Source of the DNA: Perkinsus olseni
Taxonomy: Eukaryota; Perkinsozoa; Perkinsida; Perkinsidae
Length of the DNA stretch: 42,634 nt
Direction of reading: 5' to 3'
Assembly: GCA_013115135.1 (NCBI GenBank)
Contig: JABANP010000455.1
Location: 1-42,634 of the forward strand
Part shown: piece after piece, positions 1,690-39,912 of the stretch
How positions within the stretch are numbered: the first letter of the stretch is position 1
Layout: every line of letters begins with the position of its first letter
Position numbers and translations under genes: made by a program
Notes under the pieces: generated by a model
What the model was told of the DNA's origin: nothing
Database searches by the model: none
Seen by the model: the letters and a program-made list of their open reading frames with translations, nothing else

Positions 1690-1815
1690 AGTTGTGCAGA
1701 AATTTGTGCTCACGCACGGACGGACGTACGGACGCACGCCGCACACGAGTGACCGTGAAGTTCACGGCGTGAACTGTATGTAATATAAGCTCCGCTCGCT
1801 TCGCTCGCTCCGCAA
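1690..1815. repeat. Dispersed repeat R3, copy a
   Basis: It shares ACGCACGxACG-rich sequence, GTGACCxTGAAGT and a CGCTCCGCAA end with 3,700-3,800. This copy has gained a 14-bp footprint (1,753-1,774) that the other copy lacks. Confidence 0.5.
1753..1774. repeat. 22-bp footprint, target CCGTGAAC
   Basis: Exact 7+8+7 structure (w1-w7, reverse complement of w1-w8, w2-w8). The related repeat copy has the unexpanded site CCATGAAG at 3,754-3,761. Confidence 0.85.
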
Positions 1816-1944
1816 ATTTTCGAAAAAAATGACACTTGAGCGTCATACTCCTCAAGATGAGCAAGCCTTCGAAGGCCCAGTCGCTAGGCGGTCCTTGACG
1901 CGATCACAATAGCAGCCAACTCTACGCTACAGCAAAGGGGAGCA

Positions 1945-1983
1945 CTGAAGCCCAGCTGAAGCCCAGCTGAAGCCCAGCTGAAG
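1945..1983. repeat. 11-bp tandem array (CTGAAGCCCAG, about 3.5 units)
   Basis: Three perfect units plus a partial unit inside repeat R1a. The array is absent from the R1b copy at about 8,055. Confidence 0.9.
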
Positions 1984-1987
1984 GTTA

Positions 1988-2009
1988 GCTTGGTGACCAA
2001 GCCTTGGTC
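1988..2009. repeat. 22-bp footprint, target GCTTGGTC
   Basis: Exact 7+8+7 structure. The 8-kb copy of the same repeat has plain ACTTGGTC at 8,060-8,067. Confidence 0.88.
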
Positions 2010-2028
2010 TGCGTCGCAGACTCTGCGA
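2007..2028. repeat. 22-bp footprint, target GTCTGCGA
   Basis: Exact 7+8+7 structure overlapping the previous footprint by three bases, so two events are nested at one place. The 8-kb copy reads straight through with neither. Confidence 0.88.
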
Positions 2029-2167
2029 TCACGTGCGAATGTTGATGAGAATGAGTATCTTCGATGCCACCGCGCAGACCGCTGTCGGCTTAATGTCCTG
2101 CAGAGCCCCTGCACGTACTCGGCGCACATCAAGCTCGAAGGATGCACTTAGATTCAGCCAACGCAAA

Positions 2168-2189
2168 ACCACAAGTTGTGGTCCACAAC
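2168..2189. repeat. 22-bp footprint, target ACCACAAC
   Basis: Exact 7+8+7 structure. The homologous repeat at 8,200-8,207 has the intact, unexpanded ACCACAAC. Confidence 0.9.
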
Positions 2190-2307
2190 TGCGTGCTCGC
2201 TTCAATGGTAATATAAATTCATTATGCATAACATCATGTTGATCACCATTCAATGTAACCGGCAGGGCCCGGCGAATCTCCAATGTTGATGCATGAAATC
2301 TCCCAAT

Positions 2308-2354
2308 CAAGATTGAATGCTGTACAGATGGCATCTATACAGCATTCAATCTTG
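2308..2354. repeat. Long single-centre palindrome, arms 23 nt
   Basis: Arms 2,308-2,330 and 2,332-2,354 are reverse complements with one mismatch around a single G. It lies at the edge of R1a, where similarity to the other copy ends. Confidence 0.85.
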
Positions 2355-2849: not shown

Positions 2850-2859
2850 AGAGTGTGAT

Positions 2860-3275
2860 GCTCTGATGAGATCGCAACTAGGCAGCAGCTGCCTGGCAGA
2901 TCAACTTAGGCAGGACAAACCTGGCCGCCAGCATGTTGCGTAGGCTCCCAACAGAACAGCTGCATGACGAGAACGCATATAGATCACAGGTATACTTCGA
3001 TGCTGTAGAGCCACTAATCCCATTCTTCATTCTTCAAGTAAGGTACTTACTTTTCTTAATAGACGCCTGAGGCGTCCATCTTAGCACAAAGATAGACTCA
3101 CTACTTCCAATTGATGATACCGTCGTAGCAATCGGCCACCCGTGGCTTTATTAATGGTGACACTCCTGCCCATTTATATCCAAACACTGCGAAACCGTAG
3201 ACTCAGGTCCGGAGTTCGCCTCAGCAACTCAAGACATGCGACGGAAGGCGCAAAGCAATCTCGGAACACAAGTCT
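2860..3275. other. No gene recognised
   Basis: AT-richer flanking sequence with small palindromes, for example around 3,062-3,076, and no supported exon. Confidence 0.4.
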
Positions 3276-3800: not shown

Positions 3801-4669
3801 TAATGTTCCAAGAGACCTACCTGTAGTCTCCATCGCATATGTGGGCATGTATAATACCAAAGTGCGTCCCATGTTCCTTGACTGCTTTGGTTTGCTCTAT
3901 CTGAAACAGAAACATCGAAACTGTCCACTAGGAAATTCCAAGTCGGAATGTGCCACCCACGTTGAAACCACCAACAACACACGCGTTACGACTCGCAACG
4001 CGCGCGTCGTTGGTGCGTTCTTGACTTTGCCGAAGCTGCAGAGGATGGCAACTCGCTAAAAGCGAGTCGCTATTGGCTAGCTTAGAACGCAAAATGCTGG
4101 ATCATGATGATTCATTGGATCAGTGCGTGTTCAATTTCCCCTTCCTTCTTTTTCTATACGGTCTGTACGATTCCTATCGTCTATCAACTGTTTCTTCGCC
4201 ACTTAGCACTTACCTCAACCTGCGTTTTCTGAGGTCTTTGAACCAAGCCTTTCAAGTTTTCTACTAATGCGAGGTTTTCACAGCAAAATTAATGATTGGG
4301 AACTCTAAATGAGAGCTAGCTAGGTACCGAGAACTCGCACGACGCCCTCTACTCACGGTCCACGACCCATCGTCTTTGCTCACTGTCGTCGAACTCTCTG
4401 CGGCCCCGTCACTAGTGCTGGCCGGAGGGATGGTGGATAAGGACCTGAAGAGACGCAGACGCTCGAAGCGCTAATCGGTTCCTCCCCAGTTCCCTAGCGC
4501 TCAAGCCTTCACAAGTCCTGCGAGCATTGTATGTCCGCGTCAGCTCGCAGCACCAATTTCTATAGTATGGACTCTATACCGATGATGCGCAGGGTAGTAG
4601 TACCACCGTGGTAAAGCATAAGGAACGTACTTTAAATAATTTTCCGCATTAAGCGACTGTGACTGAGAG

Positions 4670-4691
4670 CCTCAGTGACTGAGGCTCAGTC
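4670..4691. repeat. 22-bp footprint, target CCTCAGTC
   Basis: Exact 7+8+7 structure; no paralogous empty site in the window. Confidence 0.82.
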
Positions 4692-4712: not shown

Positions 4713-4734
4713 ATCCTGAATCAGGATTCCTGAT
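4713..4734. repeat. 22-bp footprint, target ATCCTGAT
   Basis: Exact 7+8+7 structure, 22 bp after the previous footprint. Confidence 0.82.
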
Positions 4735-5406
4735 GACGGGAATTTCGCCCCGAAATCTGTGGAGGTCACCTGTTTCTAGCGAACGATTTTGAAGGATCGA
4801 AGAAGCGAAGTTCTTAGCGCTGCGCTTGAGCGCTACGTCTGTTGATCGCTCGCGGCCGACATAATTGTCGGCAATGGCGCCAGTGGAGCCACGTTGGGGC
4901 TAGTATCAGCACAAATTTATGCTCTACGAAACGTTTGTCTCACCATTATTGGGAGTCGGAAAGGACAATAGAGCCTCTATTCTAGAGGGTCCCGGACAAA
5001 TGAAAGCTCGTATAATACCGCATTATATGTACGAGTCTATTACGAGGCTCGTAGGTTTTAGGTCACGAAGTTTCGCGAGTGACTTGGGTTCAGAGTGCGA
5101 CCTGTTTGTCGCAGGTTGTCGAGCATCTACCCGACAGTGTACCGCTGTCTCTTAGAGCCTCTCCAGTGGAGAACCAAGAAGAGCAAGATTGCAGCCGACC
5201 AAAGCAACCAGAATCAAAGCTAATGAGTCGTCTAGCGCAAGTGTCAGCAGAGTGAGAGTTGCGAACGTCCGGCGCGACTATATTTCTAACTTTCCTTCAC
5301 TTCCTATTTACTTCAATTCGAGGAAGAGTCAGACTTTCTTTCCGTGGCCGACGACCACTATGCCCTAGTGCGACTCTGCATAATGACGAGCATATTCCAA
5401 GAGGCT

Positions 5407-5861: not shown

Positions 5862-5883
5862 TTCCCAGACTGGGAATCCCAGT
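5862..5883. repeat. 22-bp footprint, target TTCCCAGT
   Basis: Exact 7+8+7 structure. Confidence 0.82.
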
Positions 5884-6317
5884 GATCACTACGTGAGTTA
5901 AACACTCGACAAGACCGAAGACAGATAAATCGACCATTGACGAGACAAGTACGCGATTCGGCAAGGATTGTTCATTAACAGGAAAGGTGACAATGGGATC
6001 AACTTCCAAATCACTTACCGAGTGGACGCTCTCCTTGAAAGTTTCAAGGAGTTTCAAGTTGAAACTCCTGCTAACTTATCAGGTGATTCACCGACGACCA
6101 TCAGGACCTTCATCACGTGCCGGTCTACAAACAGCATGATCCATGGCAGCAGTGGCGTGTCACAGACCTTGGAAGCAGTATGAGCTTCCAAGGCAAGGGC
6201 CGCCAATAGCACTGCCGTCGTTCAGTTCTGCCCCCCCCCCTACCAGTAGCCCGCCGCCGTCGAGGCATCTTTCAGCAAAAGCGAGCGCAGCGACTGCCAT
6301 TCCGTAGGCTAGGACAA

Positions 6318-6339
6318 CTCCCGACTCGGGAGTCCCGAG
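6318..6339. repeat. 22-bp footprint, target CTCCCGAG
   Basis: Exact 7+8+7 structure. Confidence 0.82.
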
Positions 6340-6437: not shown

Positions 6438-7206
6438 GCGGGATGTTCACGACTCGTACACCGAAAACTCGTACATTTTCGACTCATGTCTCGAAAACTC
6501 GTACATCTTCGACTCGTACACCAAATACCCGTACAATGAGGACTCGTGCACGGAAAACTCATACACAGAAAACTCGTACATGTAAAACTCGTACGCAAAA
6601 TACTCGTACACATAATACCCGTACACAAAACACTCGTACACATAATGCTCGTACACCGTCATTTCATACACACACCCACTTTCAACTCGTACACCGTCAT
6701 TTCGTACACCCTGCGAAAATTTTTAGGCAAGTCGCGGAGCCGCTCCGCGCGCACTGCCGCCTCTACTTGACTATTTACCTCCTCCCTGTCGTGCCGAGCC
6801 TGTACATAGGATCGAACCCGCAACCTTTGGATTGGTAACCCGTTACCTTAACCTCCATACCACTCACACTATTGGATATTTACTAACAGAGTGGCGCAAA
6901 CAATTCGCTCTCTATAGACAATTTTACTTCCTTCGCTCCGCCATTGCTCTCAGCGCGCGGCCCAAAAATGCGACTCAAGCAGCATAGTGTACGAAACGTG
7001 CTCGTGTACGAGCTAACGATGTACGAGTTTTATGCGTATGGGTTTTACGTGTATGAGTTTTATGTGTACGAGTATTATGTGTACGAGTTTTAAGTGTACG
7101 AAACGACGGTGTACGGATCCAAGGGGTGAACGAGCATTCAGTATACGAGTCGTGTACGAAATGAAAGTGTACGAGTTTTCGGTGTACGAGTCGTGATACA
7201 CCCGGG
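6438..7206. mobile_element. Foldback element with inverted CTCGTACAC arrays
   Basis: The left end (GCGGGATGTTCACGACTCG...) and the reverse complement of the right end (CCCGGGTGTATCACGACTCG...) match for about 40 nt. Inside the left end, 6,450-6,715 is an array of imperfect 15-16-bp units built on CTCGTACAC followed by an A-rich spacer. Inside the right end, 6,993-7,195 carries the same units inverted (GTGTACGAG). A central 275 bp lies between and includes a tRNA-like fragment. No transposase is encoded and no target duplication is obvious. Long terminal inverted repeats made of tandem units are typical of foldback elements. A single end of the same family lies at 17,600-17,645. Confidence 0.72.
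6796..6869 (-). repeat. tRNA-like fragment inside foldback element
   Basis: Read on the minus strand it has a box-A-like TGGTATGGAGG and a good box B (GGTTGCGGGTTCGATCC). The arms do not pair into a normal cloverleaf, so it is more likely a SINE or pseudo-tRNA than a working tRNA gene. Confidence 0.35.
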
Positions 7207-7691: not shown

Positions 7692-7713
7692 GGCCCGAAT
7701 CGGGCCGCCCGAT
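7692..7713. repeat. 22-bp footprint, target GGCCCGAT
   Basis: Exact 7+8+7 structure. Confidence 0.82.
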
Positions 7714-7869: not shown

Positions 7870-8320
7870 ATCCATGCGCATTAGAACGCAACAGTAGAGG
7901 TCGCAGGTTCGATTCTCACGGCCGACACTTCCAGAAAACCCTGCCAGCTGAGCTTCACACTACTCGAGATGGTGTAAAAGCCCTCCCCCAGACGGTCCTT
8001 GTCGAGGACTCCTTGAAGTGATCACAATAGCAGCCGACTCGACGCTACAGCAAAGGGGGACTTGGTCTGAGATCACGTGCGAATGATAATGACTATCCTC
8101 GATGCCACTGCGGTGGAGACCACTGCTAGTTTCGGAAACCTCACGGCCCCTCCGCGTCATCGTCGATCGAGGGATGCACTTAGATTCAACCAACACAAAA
8201 CCACAACTGCGTGCTCGCTTCAATGGTAATATGAATTCATTACGCATAACATCATGTTGATCAGTGATCACCATTCAATGTAACCGGCAGGGCCCTGCGC
8301 ATCTTCGAAGTTGAGGTCTC
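7870..8320 (+). repeat. Dispersed repeat R1, copy b
   Basis: It begins with the tRNA-like 3' half (AGAGGTCGCAGGTTCGATTC) and continues through GATCACAATAGCAGCC to GTAACCGGCAGGGCCC. It is colinear with R1a at about 1,890-2,290. The right end runs into the last codons of the DZIP1-like gene on the opposite strand. Confidence 0.65.
7995..8016. repeat. 22-bp footprint, target GTCCTTGA (one mismatch)
   Basis: 7+8+7 structure with one changed base in the inverted part. The sister repeat has the intact 8-mer GTCCTTGA once, at 1,891-1,898. Confidence 0.82.
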
Positions 8321-12877: not shown

Positions 12878-12899
12878 AACTCACCGTGAGTTACTCACG
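12878..12899. repeat. 22-bp footprint, target AACTCACG
   Basis: Exact 7+8+7 structure in the intron between PIH1-A exons 4b and 5. Confidence 0.85.
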
Positions 12900-13302
12900 C
12901 CCACTCTCCTCTACAACAGATCAACACGGGTGTCAACGCTCGGACAACCGGCGCAGGAATGCAGGAGTCGACCTATCTTCCTTGATTACGCAACCTCCGC
13001 ACACCTTTATATCTCATCCTAGGCGTGACGAAGTTGTCTAGGTCCAAAGAGTCCATACCATACTTACGCCCAACACCAGACAAGGCCAGCTGGCATATAC
13101 TCCTGAACACACTAGCGCATGATGATCCGTCGAACGACAGCAGCCTACTTGTATTCTCCTACATCCGCGGCATCCATCGCTTTCGTCAGCACCTCTGGGT
13201 TGAACTTCAACCGTTGAAGACAACATCGATCCTAAAGTGTGACCGATCCTGTCGAGGACAGCTTGTCATCATCGTGAGCACAACCCACTTCAAACGACGG
13301 CA

Positions 13303-13324
13303 ACCGGTAGTACCGGTCCGATAC
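13303..13324. repeat. 22-bp footprint, target ACCGGTAC (one mismatch)
   Basis: 7+8+7 structure with one changed base in the last part, in a PIH1-A intron. Confidence 0.78.
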
Positions 13325-13862
13325 AATTCAAACCGATGCTACAACCGTTGTGGTACAACGTTCAATCAGTCGAGTTCTTCCCTACGCAGTGATTAGCTCG
13401 AGGCTGCGAGAAGTTCATCTCGGTATTTCAGTAAGAGCTCAGTGCTGCCGGAGATCGAGAGTATGCAGTAGAGCAGTAGCAAACAACCGATGATCTCCAT
13501 GAAGCCTATGGCAGACTTACACGGCACAGCTGCCGCCCTTCCTGCCAGCATCATCACGTTCCTCCCCGATACTCATTGGGACCCTTATCCCCTGTTGCTG
13601 CTCGGTGTTATCGAGGAAGGACTAGACATGGGGTGCCTCCACGTACCTAGACAACTGATCAATCTCAACAGCTTCACCTTTTGGTAAAGTACTTGAAGAA
13701 GTCAGCCGTGCATGCAGCGACTGTCTGTGTTATGAGTGAGAGTATCAACCATCAATCTTAGATGGCCCCCAGAGCCTAACCAGCCGCCGCGGTGGCTCCT
13801 GATGGCCGTCTGATTGGACTCCATGTCAACGCCACACAAAGCCGCTAACTAAGAACGTCTGC

Positions 13863-13929
13863 GAGAACCTAACTAAGCCAGAGGCGGCGTTGAATTATTC
13901 AACGCCGCCTCTGGCTTAGTTAGGTTCTC
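13863..13929. repeat. Perfect 67-bp palindrome, arms 33 nt, one-base centre
   Basis: Arms 13,863-13,895 and 13,897-13,929 are exact reverse complements around T. The left arm matches 14,945-14,977, where the sequence continues as GTTGAATA. The centre T is therefore the complement of the next original base, the same rule as in the 22-bp footprints. It sits at the junction of the tandem duplication of PIH1 exons 2-4. Confidence 0.95.
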
Positions 13930-14150: not shown

Positions 14151-14172
14151 AGCACACAGTGTGCTGCACACT
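14151..14172. repeat. 22-bp footprint, target AGCACACT
   Basis: Exact 7+8+7 structure in the short intron between PIH1-A exons 3a and 4a. This intron is 49 nt in copy B. Confidence 0.85.
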
Positions 14173-14416
14173 ACTGCATGATGATGGCCTCTCGATGGGC
14201 AGCAGCCTACTTGTATTCCCCTCCATCCGCGGTATTCATCGCTTTCGTGAGGACCCCAGGATTGAAGACAACATCGATCCTGAAGCGTGACCGACCCTGC
14301 TGAGGACAGCTCATCGCTCTCGTCAGCATCATGGGCAGCTAGTGAAGAGCAGTCTACGCCTGCCGATCGATCGAGCTCACTGTCGATCCCGCAACGCTTA
14401 GGTGGTCATTTCTATA

Positions 14417-14438
14417 ATACCAACTTGGTATTACCAAG
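14417..14438. repeat. 22-bp footprint, target ATACCAAG
   Basis: Exact 7+8+7 structure. PIH1-B has the plain site ATACCAAG at 22,031-22,038 in otherwise matching sequence. Confidence 0.92.
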
Positions 14439-15005: not shown

Positions 15006-15647
15006 CAGGGTGTCTGAGAATCTTTCCGCGGAAACTTTTCGCAGAAAGTTTCCAAAGAAAATTTCCTAATTTTTCCGGGCGCCAGATTTTTTCGTAAAGT
15101 TTCCTGAAGGGACTTTTTGAAAGTGAGGGAATCGACTCTGCATGTCACGTCAATACCTGTAAAGTGGGAGGAACATAGCTATCCGTTTGATCTGGTCTGA
15201 TCACTGGAGCTGGTGGATTCTCCACAATCCATAACCACGATCTGACGACATATGATATGTCACCTATCGCAATTTTAGAAATTTGCATTCCCGTGGGGCA
15301 CTTTTCCGCCCAAACCCGAATGTTCGCTAATCTGCAACCCTCGCCGAAGCCTTACGGAGTGTCTTCTTTGAAAGACTGAAAAGTCTCCTTTTCGCAAGAC
15401 CCCTGAATACCCAGAGCCCAGGCTTCACTCCTACTACTCCGAACGGAGCCTTCGGTCCCGGATTCCTATCGGTGTTCGCGAGAGGCTCTCACCGAGAGCC
15501 GAGAAAGCCTTGGACCTAGCTGGGAGCATCCGAAACGGCATAGATACCGTTTTTCGCAAATTTTAGAAACTTCTGAAAATTCGGAAATTTCTGGAAAGAC
15601 TCTTCGGAAACTTTCCGCGATTCCGGGAGTACTTTTCAGACACCCTG
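15006..15647. mobile_element. MITE-like element, CAGGGTGTCTGA terminal inverted repeats
   Basis: 642 bp, starting CAGGGTGTCTGA and ending TCAGACACCCTG, with further imperfect inverted similarity inside (CCGCGGAAAC... against GCGGAAAGTTTCC...). It lies in intron 1 of PIH1-A; PIH1-B lacks it at about 22,580. Flanks show only an imperfect direct repeat (TTGTGC/GTGTGC). The CAGGG end suggests a hAT-type non-autonomous element. No coding capacity is recognised. Confidence 0.7.
15247..15268. repeat. 22-bp footprint, target GACATATC (one mismatch)
   Basis: 7+8+7 structure with one changed base, inside the MITE-like element at 15,006. Confidence 0.72.
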
Positions 15648-15881: not shown

Positions 15882-15903
15882 TCCAACAGTGTTGGACCAA
15901 CAC
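15882..15903. repeat. 22-bp footprint, target TCCAACAC
   Basis: Exact 7+8+7 structure just upstream of the lost PIH1-A start. PIH1-B has TTCAACAC once at 22,815-22,822. Confidence 0.88.
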
Positions 15904-16690
15904 ACTACGGTGGAAGAAGCCGCGAGGAGAGCAGGACAGCCCTGGACTGCAGCACCAGAGCGATTGATGGACGACTGAACGAAACTAACCCAATAGATGA
16001 TATGCGCTCCCGAGGAAAAGAGTAATATGGATGGAGGTATAGTAAACAGTACGTGATTCGGGACTTTCCTAGCCATGCATGAGCTTGCACTTAATGGCCA
16101 TAGTGCCTGAAAAACAGCCATCATCGCGAAATGCATCCATCTCCGATCCCGATCCAGTACCTCCAACTGAGTAGACGTCCTTTCCTTGGGTAGACGGCCT
16201 GACGGTTGGGGCAGCCACACCCGAGGAAGGAAGAGCCGCCACCAGCCACCGAATTTCGCCATTCACCTAAGGAAAATACCAACTTGCCCATAGACATCGC
16301 AACTTGCGGTGTTCAAGGTCCATGCAATTACGTTTCGTTCACTAAATATTCATACCCTTCGAGTTCGTACACTGGAACTTCCAGTCTGGAAGCCCGAACA
16401 CTCAGAGGACATACACTAAACTTTAGTTTGATATTGTACACCACAAAATCTCAGCAAGTCGCTGTATGTCGCGTCTACCATTGCGAGCGACTAGGGGGCG
16501 CTGTGCCATCGTACGCTAAGCCAACCCAAGAGTTAAAATTTGGCCTCCAGGGTCTGGAAAGGAGTCACTTCAAAACGTTTTTCTTCAGTCGCATCAGTTT
16601 TATCCACTCCCGGCAACTTTGACCTGAAGGTAGAAAATACTTTTTTCTTCCAGATCTGTCCAAGGAAAAAGTAAATTTTATTGTCAAACA
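15904..16690. other. PIH1-A upstream flank; no gene recognised
   Basis: The first ~100 bp match the flank of PIH1-B (AGGACAGC...GAGCGATTGATGGACG). The rest holds open frames on both strands without domain support. Confidence 0.35.
16371..16392. repeat. 22-bp footprint, target ACTGGAAG
   Basis: Exact 7+8+7 structure. Confidence 0.82.
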
Positions 16691-18166: not shown

Positions 18167-18188
18167 GTGGAGAATCTCCACTGGAGAT
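18167..18188. repeat. 22-bp footprint, target GTGGAGAT
   Basis: Exact 7+8+7 structure. Confidence 0.82.
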
Positions 18189-19172: not shown

Positions 19173-19237
19173 TGTGCAGGATAAGGGCAAAGGGCTCCAG
19201 CGTGATACTATCCCGTCGGGATCACGGATCCACTGAG

Positions 19238-19278
19238 TGAGACTCAGGTTTCGGGATAATCCCGAAACCTGAGTCTCA
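19238..19278. repeat. Perfect single-centre palindrome, arms 20
   Basis: Arms 19,238-19,257 and 19,259-19,278 are exact reverse complements around one A. Confidence 0.95.
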
Positions 19279-19301: not shown

Positions 19302-19320
19302 GTACAGTGTGACACTGTAC
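19302..19320. repeat. Single-centre palindrome, arms 9
   Basis: GTACAGTGT-G-ACACTGTAC, exact. Confidence 0.9.
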
Positions 19321-19329
19321 TGGTGGATA

Positions 19330-19366
19330 CTGTAAGATTCGACACTGTCAGTGTCGAATCTTACAG
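19330..19366. repeat. Perfect single-centre palindrome, arms 18
   Basis: Arms 19,330-19,347 and 19,349-19,366 are exact reverse complements around one T. Confidence 0.95.
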
Positions 19367-22806: not shown

Positions 22807-23350
22807 TGTGTGGCTTCAACACACTACTTCTGAAAGAGCATCGAGGGAGCAGGACAGCACTGCAATACTCGAGCGACTGATTGACAGCTGAACCTGACTG
22901 ACTCAACAGCTGTGTGGCTTCCCTATAGAAATCTAGTCGAGTGATGGTGTCGTGTCGGTAACCAAGGAAAGTGTTCGTTGCACCATCGGTGGGCACCGTC
23001 CACTGGACGGGATAGCCTCCATTATGTATGGGATGTCTGAAGCCACTGACGCACCAGCCGCGCCCTCTCTTCAATCGCAGCGATAGAAGCACGACTCTAG
23101 CTGCTGTTGCTGCCCTCTCGACGAACATTCTCGGATACGATAATACTCCAGGAGTATTACTCCTATATTCCTCCTCGTTCTAACCGATTGCAACCACCAC
23201 TCGGATGAATAACGAGACCCTGAGCTTGGTCCCGAGTGGATACGAGATGGTCTGATGATTCTCCTATAACTTCCGTTGGGAACTTTAACCCGGGCGTTCA
23301 GCAAAACCGTCGCTGAATTGGAATAAGCGTCATGCATCACAATGGGAGGA
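22807..23350. other. PIH1-B upstream flank; no gene recognised
   Basis: The first ~110 bp are shared with the PIH1-A flank and probably hold the promoter. Nothing coding is supported beyond it. Confidence 0.4.
23143..23164. repeat. 22-bp footprint, target ATACTCCT
   Basis: Exact 7+8+7 structure. Confidence 0.82.
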
Positions 23351-23958: not shown

Positions 23959-24471
23959 GACGATGTCCCGAATATAACCCCGACGACACTCTCGGCCATT
24001 GGGGGCGAACGTGAAGAGAAGTTGTTGGAAGATGAGACGAGCGTATGAGTGCTGAGGCCTTGCCAAGGACCTATCTCTCCAGGAAACGAGAAACAACCGA
24101 TAACACTCCCCGGACAACAGTGTGAAAACGAGGAGAGGATGCTTGCCGTTTATTGACCGGAATACTTCGAGGAGACAGGGGGAATGGAAAAAGCTCGAAG
24201 GGGTCAACAACACTTGCGGCCGATGGCCAGTCGCCTCCAGTCTGAAGCGAAAATGGAAAAACGATGGATAGAGTGAAGCTAAGCATGGTGGGGCCTCGTT
24301 GGACCAGATAGAGATGATCGACTCGTCGGTGTAATACACCGGGTGTATGCACGGGACTCCCCTCAGCTATGGCCCACAGCAACCGTCGGGCGTTCCAGGT
24401 GGCGAGCGTGATGAGGAATGGCGTCTCCGGTGTCTCACAGTCTCGCTTGCCCTACGAGCACCATTGCCCGC
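23959..24471 (+). promoter_or_regulatory. 5' flank of secreted-family copy 1
   Basis: 24,215-24,471 is homologous to 28,055-28,319 upstream of the sister gene (GCCGATGGCCAGTCGCCTCC, then CACAGCAACCGTCGG). The regulatory region was therefore duplicated with the gene. It carries the footprint at 24,327, absent from the sister flank. Confidence 0.5.
24327..24348. repeat. 22-bp footprint, target CGGTGTAT
   Basis: Exact 7+8+7 structure. The sister flank has AGGTGTAT once at 28,167-28,174. Confidence 0.9.
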
Positions 24472-25348: not shown

Positions 25349-25370
25349 TAGCAACTGTTGCTGAGCAACA
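25349..25370. repeat. 22-bp footprint, target TAGCAACA (one mismatch)
   Basis: 7+8+7 structure. The R2 copy at 30,160-30,167 has TAGCAACA once. Confidence 0.85.
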
Positions 25371-25676: not shown

Positions 25677-25698
25677 GCTCCTACTAGGAGCCTCCTAG
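25677..25698. repeat. 22-bp footprint, target GCTCCTAG
   Basis: Exact 7+8+7 structure. The R2 copy at 38,831-38,838 has GCTCCTAG once. Confidence 0.9.
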
Positions 25699-26557: not shown

Positions 26558-26579
26558 AGTTGAAGTTCAACTGTTGAAC
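26558..26579. repeat. 22-bp footprint, target AGTTGAAC
   Basis: Exact 7+8+7 structure. Confidence 0.82.
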
Positions 26580-26749: not shown

Positions 26750-26771
26750 GGTTCGTGACGAACCGTTCGTC
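26750..26771. repeat. 22-bp footprint, target GGTTCGTC
   Basis: Exact 7+8+7 structure. Confidence 0.82.
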
Positions 26772-26960: not shown

Positions 26961-26974
26961 CCGTTCAATAGTTC

Positions 26975-27134
26975 TATACAGTTTAATAATGCTATACAGT
27001 TTAATAATGCTATACAGTTTAATAATGCTATACAGTTTAATAATGCTATACAGTTTAATAATGCTATACAGTTTAATAATGCTATACAGTTTAATAATGC
27101 TATACAGTTTAATAATGCTATACAGTTTAATAAT
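26975..27134. repeat. 18-bp tandem array, about 9 units
   Basis: Unit TATACAGTTTAATAATGC, almost perfectly conserved. The unit is divisible by three and so leaves an artificial open frame. AT-rich, next to a PIH1 fragment. Confidence 0.95.
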
Positions 27135-27679
27135 GTTAGTTGTTGAATACTGTAATAAATTATTTGCTGTAATACGAATAAATTAGGTATAACCCAGTAA
27201 TAATCACATTATACAGCTACATATCGTTACAGTCATGACTCAGTGGTATTACCACCCAATTCACTCTAGTGTGGAGAGGAAGTAAAAGATCTACTGATCA
27301 TCACTGCCACTACGCCTGCTGTTGAACTTATCAACCTTTTTTACTATAATGGACAATTACGCAGGGGTCTAGCGATCAATGTATGCAGCAGTTGCTTGCT
27401 CTTCCATGCAATATACAGTATATATATCCAATACCACACCAATGCGAATGCATACAACTATTCCAGAACAGACTGCTTGTCCTACTCCCAGACTATATAA
27501 ATCCGTTCCCTCAAAATGGAAGTACCGAGTTCGTATCTTACCTTGTTCAACCTCGCTCTCCTTCTCAGACACCTAGCCAGTTGAAAATCAGGCTGTAGAC
27601 ACCTTGACAGAATGCAGTGCATTCTCGAGTGCAACTCCTTGACAGAACCCCGGCATGTTCCGACAGTCGAACGAGCCTG
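27135..27679. other. AT-rich stretch; no gene recognised
   Basis: Short overlapping frames at 27,369-27,598 lack support. A GAATGCA-G-TGCATTC palindrome lies at about 27,609-27,623. Confidence 0.4.
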
Positions 27680-27939: not shown

Positions 27940-28319
27940 CTGAGCAAGCACTGAGTGAGAAGTCAGGGGATATTGAGAAACAGTAAGCGCGGTGGTGGCG
28001 TTTAAAGGTAACCACGTTCGACTTCTCATGATGCTCTCGAGTGGTCCAACTCTTGCGCCCGATGGCCAGTCGCCTCCAGTTCGAAGCGAAAATGTGATAA
28101 CGATGGGAAGAGCAAGGCGAAAGCATGGTGGAGTTCCGTTGGACCAGAGAGATATGAGCGAATCGCAGGTGTATGCCCGGGACTCGTCAGCCATGGCTCA
28201 CAGCAACCGTCGGTCGTTTGAACGGAGGGGGCGAGCGCGATGAGAGGTGGCGAGCGCGATGAGGAGTGGCGTCTCCCATGCTTCCCAGTCTCCCTTGCCC
28301 TACCTGCGCCGATATCCAC

Positions 28320-29683
28320 ATGATGGCAAACTCACTCTACGGTATTATTCTTCTTCTCGGTCTACCCAGGCCTACACTTTCGCCTCCTGTCCCTGGCCAT
28401 CGGGCGAAGAACATCGAGGCTCCGTCGATAGTCCCGGGCGAGTACAGAATCATCGATCTCGATAAATGCAACATTACATCGCTGGAGGACTTGAGAATGG
28501 ACGTTAGAGCAGGACAATAGTTGGATCCACTCTACTTTGGGTTAAGCTTCGAGCACGCGGACGGGAAATCTTATTATGTACAAAATATGTCCCCAATGAC
28601 ATGTCTGAACTACGGCAAGCCGTTGAGCGGGGATCTGCGGAGGAGGTGCTGGAAGGTGACAGGGTGGCCCAGCGGGGAAGAATGCTATTCTTTCTTACCG
28701 GGAATTCCGGAAATTCCCGGGAAGAAAGAATGCTCAATATTCCCTGGAAGAATGGTTGAGATTCTTCCCGGGTATTTAGGTGCTTCATTCCAATGGTTTG
28801 ACCTGAGAAAGCATCGAGTACGGGTGGATATGCGCGTGGAAGGCGCGCGAAAAAGAATTGGGGGGGCTTGTTTCAATGGGGAAGAATGCATTCTTTCTTC
28901 CCGGCTATATTCCCGGGAATTCCCGGAAGTTCCCGGGAATGGGAAGAATGATCCATTCTTCCCACTTTTGGGCCACCCTGGAAGGTGAGACGGACTCGTC
29001 AGTTCTACCACCTGGCGAATCCTGTAGGGCAAATGAAGACGGTGAGTGAGGCTTTCCCCAGGGATCTATCCTATGCTGCACTCGGCACCACTGTGGTGTG
29101 CCAAGTTGATGACAACACGATAAGCCTAGGGCTTTGTAGGGTGAGCGGCTTTCGCAAGGCAGAATATGAAGAATCCGACTACATTTTCGTGACTTTAACG
29201 CGATGGAATGGTGGGAGCCGGAGCATACCAGGACAGCCTTCCCAGAGCCCTACCATCAGTCCTCGTGTTGGGCGAAAAGAGCGGTTTTCCCAGGGATCTA
29301 CCGTCAGCGTATCTGCCAAACAACAAGGGCGGCTCCTACAGAGCCAAACCGGCAGTTTCTCTGATGGACGAAAAGAGTGGCTTTCCCCGAGACTTACTAT
29401 CAGCTCATCTGCTCAAAACCATGAAATCGCTCGAGCCGGTGGTTCCTCAGGACACGGGCACCCCTCAGTGGGCCAAAAGAGGAAAGCCGATGGCGACATA
29501 GCTCTCGAGTCTATCGTCCGACCAGATTCACGTGAGGCTGACTTTCCACTTGAAATGTTCTCCAAGACGGGCCAAGCTGATTCCATAACAAAGGAGGCCT
29601 CATACGCTCCCTGGGATGAAGGTGAACAAATTATCGTAGAGCGGATCGAAGATGGCGAGATCAGAACTTATCGTAAGCTTTAG
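28320..29683 (+). pseudogene. Secreted-family copy 2, with in-frame TAG and MITE insertion
   Basis: The ATG at 28,320 gives a signal peptide (MMANSLYGIILLLGLPRP) like copy 1. A TAG at 28,518-28,520 replaces a His-Arg stretch of copy 1. Coding similarity then continues (FEHADGKSYYVQNMSPM, YGKPLSGDLRRRCWK) to the MITE at 28,660 and resumes after it (RRTRQFYHLANPVGQMKTVS). The C-terminus is longer than in copy 1, with Ser/Gln-rich repeats (GRKERFSQGS, GRKEWLSPRL), a basic GQKRKADGD and an acidic end, stopping at 29,683. If the MITE is spliced (28,656-28,984) the frame is restored exactly; the TAG remains. Either a pseudogene or a gene with an unannotated intron over the TAG. Confidence 0.65.
28660..28980. 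mobile_element. hAT-type MITE that could act as an intron
   Basis: 321 bp. Termini are CAGGGTGGCCC and its exact complement GGGCCACCCTG; the wider arms (GGGAAGAATG) are also inverted. It is flanked by an exact 8-bp duplication GAAGGTGA (28,652-28,659 and 28,981-28,988), and copy 1 has GAAGGTGA once (24,801-24,808). The duplicated 8-mer contains AG|GT. Splicing with the GT of the left copy and the AG of the right copy (28,656-28,984, 329 nt) would rebuild the uninterrupted sequence. This is the arrangement described for introner elements. Confidence 0.9.
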
Positions 29684-29689
29684 TAGGCT

Positions 29690-30130
29690 TGATACTTCAT
29701 ACCTACCATGATGTTCATGGTGATGTTCATCATTTCCTTGTTGTTGCCGTTCAACAGTACCATCCAATTCCCAACGATAAGTGTATGACAACTCTGATAA
29801 TATATCACTTGCACGGGGAGCCCCGCTACACCTCTGTGAATGGCGTTTGCGGCTTTCGCGATCGTAAGAGACGATAGAAACAAGCTCATGTCAAAAGTTT
29901 TGACTCAAAACTCCAGTCGCCTTACCTGATGGATCTCTTCCAAGGCGAGCTTGATCTGTTGCAGCAAAATAGCAGACAGGTTGGCCCCTCCCTCCTCTAC
30001 ATATATGCGACACTCTTGCCCAGGCTGGAGAGTCCAGCTCCTCAGAGACATCATACTTTTCCCAGTCTGCCTGCTGTAACTGTTAAACAGCTGTTAATTT
30101 AAACAGCTGCTGTTTGGACACACCTGAATG
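29690..30130. other. 3' flank of secreted copy 2; no gene recognised
   Basis: No supported exon. It contains a 22-bp footprint at 29,890 and an AAACAGC-T-GCTGTTT palindrome near 30,102. Confidence 0.4.
29890..29911. repeat. 22-bp footprint, target GTCAAAAC
   Basis: Exact 7+8+7 structure. Confidence 0.85.
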
Positions 30131-31105
30131 AATAACATGCATACTCTACCGAACACTAGTAGCAACACGATTGTGAACACGAGCGTACATATCTTCGGAG
30201 AACCGCTAGAAAGATGGGGTACCGGAAGACTGACAGCATTGACAACGAAATTTCCGCTATGATGAGCCAGACGGAGATAGATCGGAGAAGCCGAAGAGAT
30301 GAGGCTCTGGTTATGGGCCGATGGAACTTCAGTGAAGTTACTTCACGTCCTCCAACTCTCCCAGAGACTCTCAAATTGACCGCAGATTTTCGGAACAGCT
30401 CAGAAATATTCAGGAGAGGTCCTGGCAAGAGCCTAGGAAAGCTCTCCTTCAAAACTCAACACAGTAAATATATTAGACACATAGAGAATCGTCTTAGCAG
30501 TCTCATAGCCGGGAAGGCAGTTCGGTACTTCACGTCTACGTTCGTGGCTTTGCCTAGGTCTTCGCCTCTTTTCCGGGAGAGTCAGGGAGGTCACGATTTC
30601 AGAATCCTTCCAGACTATATCCTTCGTGTCGGGACCCAAGTCAACCCTCGTTAAAAGTTCTTTGCTTACCAACGAGCTATTCCACTCGAATTGAGTGCCA
30701 TAGCGAGAGCCGTAATCGTTCGCTTCGGCGCCCTCCGACACTGCTTCTCTGACGGGAGAACTGCTGTGAGAAAGCTGATGCTTGTTCGTATTCGCTAAAT
30801 GAGGGAATTCGGAGGGAATTCTGGACGCGAATTCCCTTCAAGTGCACCTCGACGATCAGCCAGTTGAAGAAATATATTGCTTTCATCGAGAAAAGGCACG
30901 CGTTCTTCCGTCATGATGGTCATAACAGCATGCGTCTTATGACATAGGTGATAGTCCCAATCGTCATCTCAGGTTCAGCGACGGCTTGCATTGCAAGGAC
31001 TCGGTTCTCGAGACCAACACGATGGACAACTGGATGGTCATGACGGAGACGGACATGTGAATCAAGTTGCAAACGTTGAATAGCCAGTAAACCTCTCGAG
31101 GCAGC
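30130..31105 (-). repeat. Dispersed degenerate gene family R2, copy c (longest)
   Basis: It contains all R2 blocks. Minus-strand peptides include NVCNLIHMSVSVMTIQLSIV (membrane-like, about 31,060), EYEQASAFSQQFSRQ (about 30,795-30,750), KELLTRVDLGPDTKDIVWKD (about 30,650) and ESLGELEDVK (about 30,370). Stops and shifts separate them. Confidence 0.5.
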
Positions 31106-31549
31106 CAGTTGTCAAGTGACGACAACTCTTAATGAGAATCTTTGATGAACGATCAAGACTCCTTGCACGCGCAGCGGGGGTCGAGCCGCTCGGCCCGAGC
31201 GTAAGCCTTCACACTCTTCCGCTCACGTGACGAGCCTACGCTGCATGACATCTTGCTGATTTCTTCCCTTCCTTCTAGACCAACAGCTGGGATTGGTATT
31301 ATCCACAATATTGGCATTTCTCAGCCTTCATCGCGAGGCCTCCAACCGATGACGAGGCGGACTCCATAGGCCTCGAGTCGGAACTTGACGACGTCAAGTT
31401 GACGTCTTCGACTCGACGATTAAGTGACATACTCAATTGGAGGAGGTCCAAACTTCTGTCTACTCCACAGACAAACAGGAATACATTATATACACTGCGT
31501 ATAATACACACTCTCCGCAGGAGAAAGCATTCCGTCCAATCAGTGTGTC
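31106..31549. other. No gene recognised
   Basis: Contains the footprint at 31,384 and no supported exon. Confidence 0.4.
31384..31405. repeat. 22-bp footprint, target CTTGACGT
   Basis: Exact 7+8+7 structure. Confidence 0.85.
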
Positions 31550-35909: not shown

Positions 35910-36157
35910 TACTACAATACCGTAACTTCCGATAATCAGCCTCCATAGGTGCGCTATGACTCAGTCACCTATAAAGGTGATGACAAACTAAAACGCTGTA
36001 CCCCTATTGAGCTGACCGTAAAACTAAACAAGCGAATCATCAACATCAACATCATGGTCATTGGGGATGCCCTACCATCGTGAGAGAACGTACACAACAT
36101 ATCATAATTACGCCAGCAGTTCCGCAAGCCTTAACTGAGCCTGCAGAGCCGGGTTGA
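35910..36157. promoter_or_regulatory. Duplicated upstream region of the RAP gene
   Basis: Nearly identical to 42,295-42,520 (ACCGTAACTTCCGATAATCA, CTATGACTCAGTCACC, ATAAAGGTGATG). It includes the last codons (LAELLA, stop at 36,108-36,110) of the neighbouring upstream gene. The right copy has about 110 bp more between this block and the start codon. The duplication breaks at about 36,157. Confidence 0.6.
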
Positions 36158-36175
36158 TGAATCGATGATGATGAT

Positions 36176-36360
36176 CAGGGATCAATCCAGGCTTTCGGAA
36201 GTTTACGCCTCGGAGAATAGTTGATTAGGTTTCATACGCCCAATTCGCCCATTACACAGTGAAATTTTTACTTTCTGGCCTCGATTCATACGCCTTGAGG
36301 GAAAAATTTTCTTAAAATGTACGCCTAAGGCGTACATTTATACGCCTAGATTGATCCCTG
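36176..36360. mobile_element. hAT-type MITE, 185 bp, with 8-bp target duplication
   Basis: Begins CAGGGATCAATCCAGGC and ends with GCCTAGATTGATCCCTG (16 of 17 inverted). It is flanked on both sides by ATGATGAT (36,168-36,175 and 36,361-36,368). A perfect 11+1+11 palindrome lies inside at 36,316-36,338. It sits within 20 bp of the duplication breakpoint. Confidence 0.85.
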
Positions 36361-36411
36361 ATGATGATGGTGTATCGAATGTGTGAGCGCCGTCGTACTC
36401 CATATTCGTTT

Positions 36412-36655
36412 GTGTAGTAGTGGAGGTCATTAAGCATTTATTCAAGAGGCCTCCTAGCTGTTAATTTTACCACGACATAATCAACAAACGACTCACCCTG
36501 CACACGCATGCTGGACGATACTAGGCCCTATTTTCTTCGAAACAGTAGAGGTCGCGGGTTCAATTCCCACGCCTGACACTTTCAGGAAAACTCTGACACT
36601 TGAGCGTCGCACTCCTGAAGATGAGCAAGCCTTCGAAGGCCCAGTCGCCGGTAGA
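36412..36655 (+). repeat. Dispersed tRNA-derived repeat R1, copy c
   Basis: Same order as R1a: GTAGTAGTGGAGGTCATTA, CGACATAATCAACA, the tRNA-like GGTCGCGGGTTCAATTCC, then TGAGCAAGCCTTCGAAGG, with no 440-bp interruption. This defines the uninterrupted form of the repeat. Confidence 0.6.
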
Positions 36656-37720
36656 TTTTTTGGGCATTTCACAAGACGTAAGGGAGTGGAAATGTGTTTA
36701 TGTGAAAATTCGATGTTCAGAATTCTTGGGAATCGACGGTGGAAGCACACAAGATTCGAAAAAAGAAAAAATGCCAGTGGATTTTCGGGGAATTAGAAGA
36801 CGTTAAGGAGATGCAAGCCAGAGGACCTATCCCGAGAACCTCCTTTTCCTTCACCGCCTTCCGTTTCATCTCTTCCAGTCGCTTCGCTCGTATCAGATAC
36901 GACGTATCTTCTCCAACTCGTCATCAACACAATCGTCCACACTTTGCTGGATATCATTTCCGCTAGGATCCAGCGGGCGCGGGGCAAAATTACCCAGACG
37001 CACCTGAAGGAGCGAAACACCGTCACTTCCCGTAAAAATCCTCGGCGTGCGAAGATTCCCGTCCGTCCATCTTCTGAGCTTCACGTTCAGTAGCACCCAA
37101 CGAAGTGAATTCCGAGATACGGCGACTAAACCAGTAGTAGTAAATAACTTGTACTGAATGAAAAAATCAGGGTGGCCGGACGGCCTCCTGACCGCTGAAT
37201 AATAATAATCATCCCAGAGACCACGATCTCGTCCAGCTCACGAGAAGCTACTGGAGGATTGCAGATCTTGGACAAGCAAATTGCTTGAAGCAATTGTGAG
37301 CGGAGCGGCAATAATTTAGTGGCGCGTGACGGATACTCGATAGCCCCTGTTGCCTTGCCCCTCCAAGCTTACATGAATATCCTCCCACTCTGTCGTTCCC
37401 GGTACCAAAGCCATTATCAAACTAACCTATGACCATCACCCCATCAAAAGCCGGTCCGTATCGACACCTTGCTGAGTCGGAAACTCGACACCAATGATAC
37501 TTCAGAAACAACACGCAGCACATGCAAAGCACAAATCGATCATCACCACCACCAACCGTTTCATTACAGCGTAATTCGTGTTGGTAATTTTTGTAACTTC
37601 AATCCGGCCCCGGAGAGCATCCAAGCCTTGCTCGGTTTCTGCGCTTTGAAGAAGTTCTCCCCGATGTACTGGAATGAGTTGCTGTCGAGTGCGCACTCTC
37701 TAGCGTTGAACTAACATAAA
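36656..37720. other. No gene recognised
   Basis: Short frames only. A palindrome AATTGCTT-G-AAGCAATT lies at about 37,274. An isolated CAGGGTGGCC end occurs at 37,167 without a partner. Confidence 0.4.
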
Positions 37721-37734
37721 AAATACATCCTTCG

Positions 37735-37820
37735 GGGATCGAACCTGGGACCTCCGACCTTCGTAGGATCGGAGTATTGATCTGCGTCTCCCTGCGCCAT
37801 ATGCCGCTCCCTGAAGTCCC
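37735..37820 (-). repeat. tRNA-like fragment
   Basis: The minus strand has a box-A-like TGGCGCAGGGAGACG and box B GGTTCGATCC, about 45 nt apart. The T-stem and acceptor stem do not pair properly, so a pseudo-tRNA or SINE is more likely than a gene. Confidence 0.35.
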
Positions 37821-38030
37821 GCAAAGCAATGAATCTGAGATCGAAGCACGATATACACAAAATATATCCTGGCTATCCGGCCATACCTGCTCATTCGTAT
37901 CATATCGATTCTCCTAGACTTCAACGTCACTCGTCTCCAATGCCAGAACGGCACCTGAGCGGAGCGGAGAAAATTCAAAAGACTTCGACTGCTAAGCCGA
38001 TTGATCGGACACGCTTGTTAATATCCATTT

Positions 38031-38400
38031 CTAGAAGACCTCCTGAAGGACGCCATAATCCCCTCCCTCCCGTCCTACTACCTGCACTATCCTGTATCCC
38101 ATCGCTTTGAGTATACGCTCCTCCAAACGACGTGTGGCGAGCTTATCAAACGATGACCTGTGGATGATCGAGCCTTCCAGCATCACACAAGACGGAGTCC
38201 GTCTGTCGGGCCGCACACTGGGGAAGAAGAAGTCCCATTGAGCAACACCCCTCCACATGGAGCTAGCAGAACCCCCCTGGAGAGACGTGAAACGGGTGAT
38301 GGGTTATTCTATCGACCCCCTCGATGCTCTGCCACAACGAGTGTATCAACCCTAGCGCCTGTGGAAAGGCAGACCACGAGCAAAGACGAGGGGTAAATGG
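38031..38400 (-). CDS. C-terminal part of a second RAP-like protein
   Basis: The last segment has CVMLEGSIIHRSSFDKLATR, then RLEERILKAMGYRIVQV, ending at the stop at 38,031. The order of a hydrophobic strand, a short loop, a helix ending LEERILKAMGYR, and a strand IVQV resembles a RAP domain. An upstream frame (LGLIHSLWQSIEGVDRI) follows a pyrimidine-rich CAG acceptor near 38,365; the junction was not resolved. RAP proteins act on organellar RNA, and mitochondrial location is inference. It may be a partial or broken gene. Confidence 0.42.
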
Positions 38401-38639
38401 AGATACACCAGGAACCAACACCGCATTAATGAGAGGAAGCAACGAGCCACCCTGCTCCACCCCCTAGTACTACCCGTAGTATCGATCGAAGTTGTTGCAC
38501 TCCCAGATCAGCCTCCTATCTCTCTCTAGGATATCAAAAGTGAAGGGGCCTCGTCGGGCACGGACGAAATGAGCAACCTTCAATTTACCTGAGGCGGCCG
38601 TAGTCAACATCAACAGTGCGAGTCTATCAAAGCAATTTC

Positions 38640-39445
38640 TGGTATGAAAGGCCAGTCGGAGATATACCGGAGAAGTTGGGCAAATGAGTTTCCGGCTTGG
38701 GGCTGATTAGAGCTCCACTTCCTTCAACTCTCGCGGAGGCTCTCGAATTCAAGAGCGGATATAGTATATCCGAAATACACGTTTAGATGAGGTAGAGGGG
38801 CTAAGGAACGCCTCATGAATATTGAGGAGAGCTCCTAGCCTAGGAGAGCTCTCCTTTCAAACTCAACACAGATGATGAATAAGACACGTCCAAAATGAAG
38901 GAGACTCATTTATGAAATGCAGCATGGCCTTTGGAGTTCGAAAACTCGGACTTCTCGCGAGATGAGACCGAACCGAATCGGTTGCACATATGCAGAAGCT
39001 AGAGCTCCTGCATCCAGAAAGTGTTTACCATAATCATTGCAACCCACTAGCAGGAACCGCTAGCATCACTGTCACAATCGGCTACTTTGCCAGCTCGAGT
39101 GAGAGATCCTCCATGGACCTCGAACAACCATCCGGTTGTTTGGCGATGACAACGCCATGAAAGAGCTTGCATTGAACGATCTTCTGGCTCAAAAAGAGCC
39201 ATGATGACGAGATAAGGATTCTTCTCCGGATACTGTCATCGTAGTCTACAATTTGGGGTTCCGCCTCTTCCATTCTCGCACTTTTCCCCGCAGTCCTTCC
39301 TGGGACTGCCAGGAACCCCCAACTCCTTCCACATTTGCCCCTTTACGCTATTCCACTCCGCCATAGCGAAAGCCGTAATCGTCCTGTTCGGCATCAAAGG
39401 GGAAAGCTTCTGTGTCTGCCGTAAGAACTCTGGCGATGAGACGTC
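38640..39445 (-). repeat. Dispersed degenerate gene family R2, copy d
   Basis: Blocks shared with 25,290 and 30,130: the CAACTCTCGCGGAGGCTCTCG region, the GAGAGCTCCTAGCCTAGGAG region with CTCAACACAG, and the minus-strand peptide LSPLMPNRTITAFAMAEWNS at about 39,420-39,350. Confidence 0.5.
38757..38778. repeat. 22-bp footprint, target GGATATAC (one mismatch)
   Basis: The sister R2 copy has GGATATTC once at 25,618-25,625. Confidence 0.8.
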
Positions 39446-39912
39446 ATTTCCTTCAAAATAGGGCCGTGATCATCGACAGGTCGCTGAGCAGCAGTGCCCT
39501 CTCCAGTGGAGAGTCTCCACGGCCGTGCAGTTTCGGCGAGTGCGGGGACGGTAGGCCAGGGAATCAGTCTACTAGACATAGCATGCACCAACGGAAAATC
39601 CTAGGCAGTGCGATGCAGGAGGCAGCTACGAGAGACCTATCTCTTCCCCTCCTTCCCATCTCGATTCCTCTTTGATAGCTTAACTTTTCTGATGCCACAT
39701 GTTCTTTACTAATACTTAATACAATTGTAACTGGAAATTACAACAGTGAATTGTATGTACAATGTAATTAATTTATTTCTAATGTATCTTTTTGAATACA
39801 AAAACTTTCCCTGAGACCGAGTATTAGATTTTCTTCAGAATCACGGCGCCCGTGTAGCGAGTCGAACACCCGTGGAAGAGGCACTCCTGCCTCGCGTGTC
39901 AGAATGAGATTT
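39446..39912. other. 3' flank of the RAP gene; no gene recognised
   Basis: AT-rich from about 39,680 to 39,830. The footprint at 39,499 lies here. Confidence 0.4.
39499..39520. repeat. 22-bp footprint, target CTCTCCAC
   Basis: Exact 7+8+7 structure. Confidence 0.85.

Follow-up and report, generated by a model that had tools for sequence, protein, structure and literature searches.

V(D)J coding joints are made from hairpin-capped ends that are opened near the tip, and the resulting joints are variable. Excision of hAT transposons leaves footprints for which hairpins have been invoked as well. According to the part of the study available to us, footprints of Ac/Ds in yeast, Arabidopsis and Candida carry palindromic P-nucleotides whose centre is complementary to the base formerly adjoining the element, and their repair uses hairpin opening and microhomology (PMC5873905). 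The same part gives 28 kinds of footprint in 128 Candida revertants, with P-nucleotide inserts of 3 nt at most, and for yeast a share of 47% with arms of at least 3 nt, the longest being 20 (PMC5873905). Hairpin-capped host ends that are opened by the cell are likewise described for Kat1 in the portion of the work accessible to us (PMC4763223). Usual transposon footprints are a mixture and therefore a poor record of past activity. Here, we analysed a stretch of 42,634 nucleotides from Perkinsus olseni (GenBank assembly GCA_013115135.1, contig JABANP010000455.1, positions 1 to 42,634 of the forward strand), referred to in its full length as the window, in which a 22-bp string of one fixed design recurs that resembles these footprints. 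For an 8-bp target w with bases w1 to w8 it reads w1-7 + rc(w1-8) + w2-8 (rc, reverse complement). These strings are probably scars of hAT excision, whose fixed length would follow from the 8-bp target duplication through annealing of the tails of both opened hairpins.

The window, contig C396 of a genome of 61.48 Mb in 968 contigs, contains 27 exact strings and 12 with one mismatch as determined by mechanical search, and ten dinucleotide-preserving shuffles of the window gave neither exact nor one-mismatch strings. All 29 sites listed in a preliminary description of the window (23 exact, six with one mismatch) were recovered, and four exact sites (starting at 13198, 30325, 36888 and 37273) and six with one mismatch (2880, 4052, 4967, 13339, 15478 and 31489) were added. 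The counts by length and offset and those of palindromes that follow refer to a main sample of 279,720 bases, i.e. the window and 31 stretches from other contigs, many of which were picked for repeats common with the window or for transposase domains; loci repeating others were left out, as was L032, which is nearly identical to its paralogue, a part of L042. With most of these loci kept in, an earlier count over 289,803 bases had come to 154 exact and 62 one-mismatch strings. The arbitrarily taken starts of contigs C1, C10 and C20 hold 10, 2 and 0 exact scars in 10 kb each (12 in 30 kb); if these are typical, a rough extrapolation from this small sample would give some tens of thousands of scars genome-wide.

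The string is tied to one target length and one offset. At an offset of one base, the exact counts for target lengths of 5 to 12 bp are 15, 4, 2, 137, 0, 0, 0 and 0, respectively. Offset 0 gives three exact matches at length 5 and none at lengths 6 to 12, while matches for offsets 2 and 3 are many at lengths 5 to 7, which leave few letters fixed, and number 0 and 2, respectively, at length 8. On a grid of lengths 6 to 20 and offsets 0 to 9, from which cells with more than 3 expected matches were dropped, the flagged combinations of length and offset are (8,1) with 137, (10,3) with 11, (6,1) with 4 and (10,5) with 3 cases, the last two against 0.27 expected. The 11 cases at (10,3) were considered as a separate scar class with a 10-bp target and rejected, all of them being ordinary scars with two chance-matching neighbour bases. 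The sharp excess at 8 bp only, which the preliminary description had named as the supporting outcome of a whole-genome scan of 5- to 12-bp targets, is thus present in this sample of the genome, and the single length and offset bear out its argument against template switching, which gives variable lengths.

A second regularity concerns the two bases at the hairpin centres. When positions 8 and 15 of the string were left free, 172 strings fitted (some overlapping loci being counted twice), and in 154 of them the two bases are the complements of w8 and w1. The version expected from 5' tails, with w8 and w1 themselves at the centres, was found once in the 172, inside a tandem repeat, and was rejected. 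It is w8 and w1 that would have touched the element, and their complements at the hairpin centres are a mark of hAT flank hairpins: the pattern follows if a cut made one base inside the flank frees a 3' end that is ligated to the opposite strand at the element edge, and if the hairpin is then opened leaving a 3' tail. Perfect palindromes with arms of at least 12 nt number 18 with one central base, none with zero or two and one with four; with three and five central bases 18 and 14 were found, of which 15 and 11 are the same palindromes as the one-centred ones.

For 195 scars (one mismatch at most), the flanks were joined at the plain target and compared with the sampled sequence. A spanning paralogue was found for 65 of them, with at least one plain 8-bp site in 42 cases, at least one copy of the same scar in 21, both in four and neither in six. 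In a tally of gaps in paralogue alignments that span 150 columns or more at an identity of 75% or higher, all 28 gaps of 14 bp lie at scars (two mismatches at most), and scar-like gaps of any other length amount to one case of 4 bp. None of 51 gaps of 6-9 bp is scar-like; 28 of these lie in two tandem arrays (L013, L015), and the remainder were not checked singly for classic short footprints. Given the plain paralogous sites and the gap tally, the scars are 14-bp insertions at 8-bp targets, with no other prominent footprint size beside them. In one repeat family, of which 22 copies among the best 40 of 144 candidates were scored, 20 copies lie within 2 bp of the query length, while two are 14 bp longer, at different sites. 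One of these carries the exact scar CTGTGTG ACACACAG TGTGTGT and the other a one-mismatch scar, and two further copies read beside them are plain. Since the additional 14 bp are private to single copies among those scored in this family, some scars are young; others are common to diverged paralogues and mutated.

The scarred targets show a base preference: of 138 with unique flanks, 60 carry T as their second base (p 3e-6) and 57 carry A as their seventh (p 3e-5). For the hAT element Hermes, the preference nTnnnnAn is given in the part of the study available to us (PMC10368747). When the 29 target duplications of all resident hAT families are scored with the scar matrix, they exceed genomic 8-mers (z 3.13, p 0.0009), and 22 of their 58 T2/A7 positions match. 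Elements of this kind, which the preliminary description had pictured as CAGGG-ended, are present in the same genome with exact 8-bp duplications. The end pattern CAGGGTGGCCCA occurs genome-wide 48 times in forward and 40 times in reverse orientation, against 3 and 2 for the reversed control. Both ends are exact in 29 copies as paired from the match list, and all 22 copies that were read (20 fetched, one in L025 and window 28660-28980) have exact 8-bp duplications. The last is a resident miniature inverted-repeat transposable element (MITE) of 321 bp, which together with both 8-bp target copies GAAGGTGA occupies 28652..28988 and is without counterpart in the paralogue near 24800. The element scan gave a second resident hAT MITE of 185 bp at 36176-36360 (36168..36368 with its target copies ATGATGAT). 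Its ends, CAGGGATCAATC, and those of an element in L017, CAGTGTGGCTGACA, are the further hAT ends found, two weaker candidates in L026 being set aside. A 1,002-bp hAT family with ends CAGGGTCGTTGG has exact 8-bp duplications in six of seven fetched copies, two of the six representing one duplicated locus and the seventh copy lacking its left end; the copy in L028 has a duplication with one mismatch.

A possible source of transposase is likewise present, the hAT dimerisation domain PF05699 being found at 21 places in the genome. At L041 3880-5883 (contig C941), an open frame of 668 codons encodes a hAT transposase with DUF4371 and Dimer_Tnp_hAT domains, and over 76% of its length this transposase shares 93% identity with a Perkinsus olseni protein; element ends around this frame were looked for and none could be assigned. 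None of ten frames in the window has a Pfam family above its cut-off. The traits of hAT footprints are found together here, namely the 8-bp length, the complement-centred palindrome and the nTnnnnAn preference, along with a transposase with dimerisation domain in the genome.

From the string, its length and offset, the plain paralogous sites, the complementary bases at the two hairpin centres, the target preference and the rare long-tailed products discussed below, we infer that an element once stood at each site, that it was a hAT, that its departure was followed by annealing rather than by one-sided opening, and that host enzymes took part. In the proposed course of events, a hAT element would sit between two copies of the target w, and on exit the cuts of the transposase would fall one base inside the flanks and both flank ends would be closed into hairpins, with w1-7 joined to w8'...w1' on the left and the mirror image on the right. 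Nicks placed by a host nuclease in the 5' strand of both hairpins, 8 nt or more away from the tip, would leave 3' tails, which would read w8'...w1' and then flank on the left and, on the other strand, w1...w8 and then flank on the right. Tails of 8 nt are exact complements over the target length for any w, so that they could anneal, and flap trimming and gap sealing would yield L + w1-7 + rc(w1-8) + w2-8 + R (L and R, the left and right flanks), i.e. a gain of 14 bp. The fixed length of 22 bp would need no exact measuring at the join, because the tails are complementary over exactly the target length. Tails that did not pair over the full target would be expected to give a pair of opposed odd palindromes separated by additional sequence.

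Rare products of such a form were found. A search for pairs of places 8 to 60 bases apart that share the same inner hexamer, have both centre bases complementary and lie off ordinary scars gave 366 pairs. In these, the longest tail extends 4, 5 or 6 nt beyond the centre base in 3, 2 and 1 pairs, against 2.1, 0.5 and 0.1 by chance, while a tail of 7-20 nt is present in 28 pairs, against about 0.05 by chance. Because tails of 4-6 nt stay near chance and those of at least 7 nt lie far above it, the tails start abruptly at the far edge of the target, 8 nt from the hairpin tip. As a guess, the transposase complex could shield the target copy until the hairpin is nicked and thereby cause this sharp start. 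Both tails are at least 4 nt long in 16 pairs, and 24 of the 32 tails in these two-tail products are at least 7 nt; when places up to 250 bases apart were allowed, 17 two-tail events were obtained, against 0.016 by chance. The window holds two-tail footprints at 6034..6065 (w = CTTGAAAC; tails reaching 10 and 11 nt past the centre bases, with a gain of 24 bp that matches a 24-bp gap against paralogue L022), 19209..19265 (TATCCCGA; tails 6 and 20 nt) and 19304..19355 (ACAGTGTC; tails 9 and 18 nt), and a one-tail footprint at 30089..30115 (AGCTGTTT; tails 1 and 7 nt).

At one target, two forms are seen side by side: L018 carries an ordinary scar at 4530, and its paralogue L028 a two-tail form at 9448-9480 that is 12 bp longer. 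Contig C576 seems to carry the longer form too, and C215 and C216 have neither. We rejected this as a pair of scarred and occupied target, the two being different footprints at the same target, which a 12-bp deletion between direct repeats could also link. Nearby, L028 (contig C736) carries a 577-bp segment, 8590-9166, in the opposite orientation to its counterpart at the same place in C215, C216 and C576 and, for a part of it, in C242; its breakpoints were read and gave no explanation.

Several observations weigh against hAT excision with annealing of both tails, and they are considered here together with the alternatives on which they bear. The repair genes leave the pathway undecided, the genome domain search giving one match to DRMBL (Pso2/Artemis class), nine to DNA polymerase A family on four contigs, and for Ku one short match (43 of 190 positions) above its cut-off. 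A lack of Ku was considered as a possible cause of the uniform repair, and this one match neither supports nor rejects it. Among the tails of two-tail products, eight of 32 are shorter than 7 nt. Furthermore, 13 of 29 rare products are one-tailed (one tail of at least 7 nt, the other of at most 3), and seven of these 13 end exactly at the target edge, which shows that opening of one hairpin only also occurs. These products slightly lower the odds of annealing and raise those of a variant in which the same hAT excision is followed by opening of only one hairpin, exactly at the far edge of the target, and blunt joining to the other flank less one base, a route that yields the identical string. 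This is the model of the preliminary description, from which we retain the one-base-offset flank hairpins and the 8-bp targets. We depart from its far-edge opening and blunt join, since tails longer than 8 nt joined straight to the other flank are almost absent, with one clear case (L009 3893) at distances of 8 to 12, against 137 of exactly 8. Were one-sided joins the main source, many direct joins of tails of 9, 10 and 11 nt to the other flank would be expected, given that the tails of the rare products vary between 7 and 20 nt, so that the nick is not fixed at 8, whereas annealing makes 8 automatic. We therefore consider one-sided opening unlikely as the origin of the 22-bp strings, while giving it more credit than any of the alternatives that follow.

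The link between scars and resident hAT elements has limits of its own. The 21 duplications of the first hAT family alone are not significant on the scar matrix (z 1.45), and the target link became significant after eight further duplications had been added (21 to 29). The source could instead be another element with 8-bp duplications, for example a GGG-ended family represented in the window by a 764-bp element between two GGGAAAGC copies (6440..7203), if that family also left offset hairpins. It has many copies, mostly with 8-bp duplications, and six of its duplications fit the scar matrix about as well as the first hAT family does (z 1.27 versus 1.45). Its copies across the genome are 72-98% identical; the window element is without counterpart in L022 and in the paralogous contig C360, and contains inner 15-bp repeats resembling CTCGTACAC. 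Among ten other copies that were fetched, the sequence common to both sides of the element measures 8 or 9 bp in six and 7 bp in one (at a contig end), and is lacking in three. By its ends only, the family would be called Merlin-like. To our knowledge, no flank hairpins have been reported for Merlin elements. The part of PMC8101967 available to us gives GG ends and 8-9-bp duplications for Merlin, both of which the 764-bp family has, records Merlin-related frames from Perkinsus marinus, and does not contain the word hairpin. Moreover, the one-base offset and the T2/A7 preference are hAT traits, and the 29 hAT duplications fit the scar matrix, which makes an origin of the scars from the GGG family improbable.

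The main gap in the case for hAT excision with annealing is the missing occupied partner, as neither the sampled sequence nor genome searches yielded a paralogue in which a hAT element occupies a scarred target. The genome searches used the flanks of 24 insertions, an insertion present in two copies, and 20 + 10 + 10 kb from the window, L018 and L028; in all of them but the one with the two-copy insertion, only the best 39-40 candidates were scored. For eight of the 24 resident insertions a spanning partner of 88-99% identity was found; seven have partners of about plain length, and the L028 insertion has partners that fall about 6 bp short of the joined flanks. Two copies from the flank search are 14 bp longer, being scarred elsewhere and not at the insertion target. 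Of the empty, filled and footprinted states that the preliminary description had proposed to compare between strains, our comparison of paralogues thus yielded plain and scarred sites and none filled by an element. A candidate for an occupied partner of the L027 scar at 4679, L028 4130-5643, was rejected as another kind of element without 8-bp duplication. This element (ends TCTTCTGGAGG and AGAGGTTTCA, no clear target copies) does lie inside the target that is scarred in L027, either by chance or through capture during repair.

The same gap could be explained if there had been no element at most sites, the transposase cutting empty targets or undoing an insertion ahead of gap repair and so leaving the string directly. 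In the sample there are about 27 exact scars to every clear hAT element (137 versus 5, although the element scan misses long, cut-off or other-ended copies), and two young scars are private to single repeat copies among those scored. However, at such a ratio pairs of scarred and occupied targets should be rare in any case, and a quick jump in and out accounts for the same facts, while hairpins of this geometry require that the flanks be cut at the ends of an element and that both target copies be present. We know of no hAT reaction that gives such a string without an element, and we regard cutting of empty targets as very unlikely. Generic fold-back or template switching in replication or repair does make inverted copies between direct copies, but the sharp single length and offset, the target preference and the near absence of even-centred palindromes leave it scarcely any credibility, and a sequencing or assembly artefact can practically be dismissed, given that 21 of the 65 scars with a paralogue have a scarred one, often mutated, and that scars occur on many contigs and with a target preference.

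The individual scars of the window are distributed as follows. Exact scars with a plain counterpart lie at 1753..1774 (w = CCGTGAAC; plain 8-bp site in six paralogues), 2007..2028 (GTCTGCGA; plain in L026), 2168..2189 (ACCACAAC; plain at window 8167-8294 and in L022, with the same scar in L026), 13198..13219 (GGTTGAAG; plain at window 14177-14311, 21788-21926 and in L022), 14151..14172 (AGCACACT; plain at window 13029-13189 and in L022) and 14417..14438 (ATACCAAG; plain at window 21951-22121 and in L022). Those at 6318..6339 (CTCCCGAG), 7692..7713 (GGCCCGAT) and 15882..15903 (TCCAACAC) are each plain in L022, and four more have their plain sites within the window, namely 24327..24348 (CGGTGTAT; plain at 28086-28252), 25677..25698 (GCTCCTAG; plain at 38747-38890) and 30325..30346 (AACTTCAC; plain at 25501-25605 and 38634-38749) as well as the one-mismatch scar at 25349..25370 (plain at 30124-30203). 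The exact scar at 5862..5883 (TTCCCAGT) recurs as the same scar in paralogue L022. String search identified further exact scars at 1988..2009 (GCTTGGTC), 4670..4691 (CCTCAGTC), 4713..4734 (ATCCTGAT), 12878..12899 (AACTCACG), 16371..16392 (ACTGGAAG), 18167..18188 (GTGGAGAT), 23143..23164 (ATACTCCT), 26558..26579 (AGTTGAAC), 26750..26771 (GGTTCGTC), 29890..29911 (GTCAAAAC), 31384..31405 (CTTGACGT), 36888..36909 (TCGTATCT), 37273..37294 (CAAGCAAT) and 39499..39520 (CTCTCCAC). Among the remaining one-mismatch scars, 4967..4988 is plain in L028, 14863..14884 is plain at window 13717-13882, and 7995..8016 is a scar common to L022; those at 2880..2901, 4052..4073, 13303..13324, 13339..13360, 15247..15268, 15478..15499, 31489..31510 and 38757..38778 were identified by string search.

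The palindrome search further gave an orphan, odd-centred perfect palindrome at 13863..13929 with 33-nt arms around a single T, which perhaps stems from a hairpin that was opened far from its tip and then joined to unrelated DNA. A relative of it with one arm only is seen at 14942-14976. Beside these features, the window contains a tandem array of an 18-bp unit, GTTTAATAATGCTATACA, at 26963-27138 and a direct duplication of 34445-36149 and 40696-42527, about 6.3 kb apart and 94-97% identical in the parts shown. An insert in contig C620 near window position 146 showed, on reading, no clear target copies.

We lean, if only by a little, towards the wider view that in this lineage hAT excision is repaired almost deterministically, by hairpin opening at the edge of the target copy or beyond it and annealing of the inverted target copies, and that nearly every visit of a hAT element is logged as an 8-to-22-bp record, of which there may be ten thousand or more. 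If this is true, the genome keeps a natural log of transposon traffic, in which the repair outcome is set by the element's own target duplication. A single predictable scar could be counted genome-wide with almost no false positives and dated against paralogues, and such scars could be used to ask about the frequency of arrivals and departures of elements and about hairpin opening by the host. The rule would also be applicable to other hAT-bearing genomes, since offset-hairpin chemistry with an n-bp target duplication would give complementary tails and a scar of 3n-2 bp. In a literature search that covered titles and the starts of abstracts and few subscription papers, no description of a uniform full-length hAT scar, or of such scars in Perkinsus, was found. 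The chemistry as such is already known; no account of the annealing rule, of such a density of scars or of a full-length outcome this uniform turned up in that search.

Compared with the known systems, the scars share single traits with several. As in mPing (PIF/Harbinger), the target duplication itself guides the joining; according to the part of that study available to us, however, staggered cuts in the target copies of mPing restore the original site, whereas here inverted complementary copies would be paired and 14 bp gained (PMC4561436). The same part cites microhomology of less than 6 bp for Ac in yeast (PMC4561436). For TcBuster, a hAT element followed in human cells, short inserts complementary to the flank are likewise ascribed to hairpins, but in the portion accessible to us only a few bases are inserted, deletions reach 50 bp, and the outcome is put down to non-homologous end joining (PMC3499496). 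In V(D)J recombination the hairpins are opened near the tip, whereas here they are likely opened at least 8 nt away from it. Finally, heterogeneity of the Ac/Ds type was not apparent in our sample, although some of the 6-9-bp gaps may be classic short footprints: where Ac/Ds footprints are varied, all 28 of the 14-bp gaps between paralogues have one form, which extends in full length over the target.

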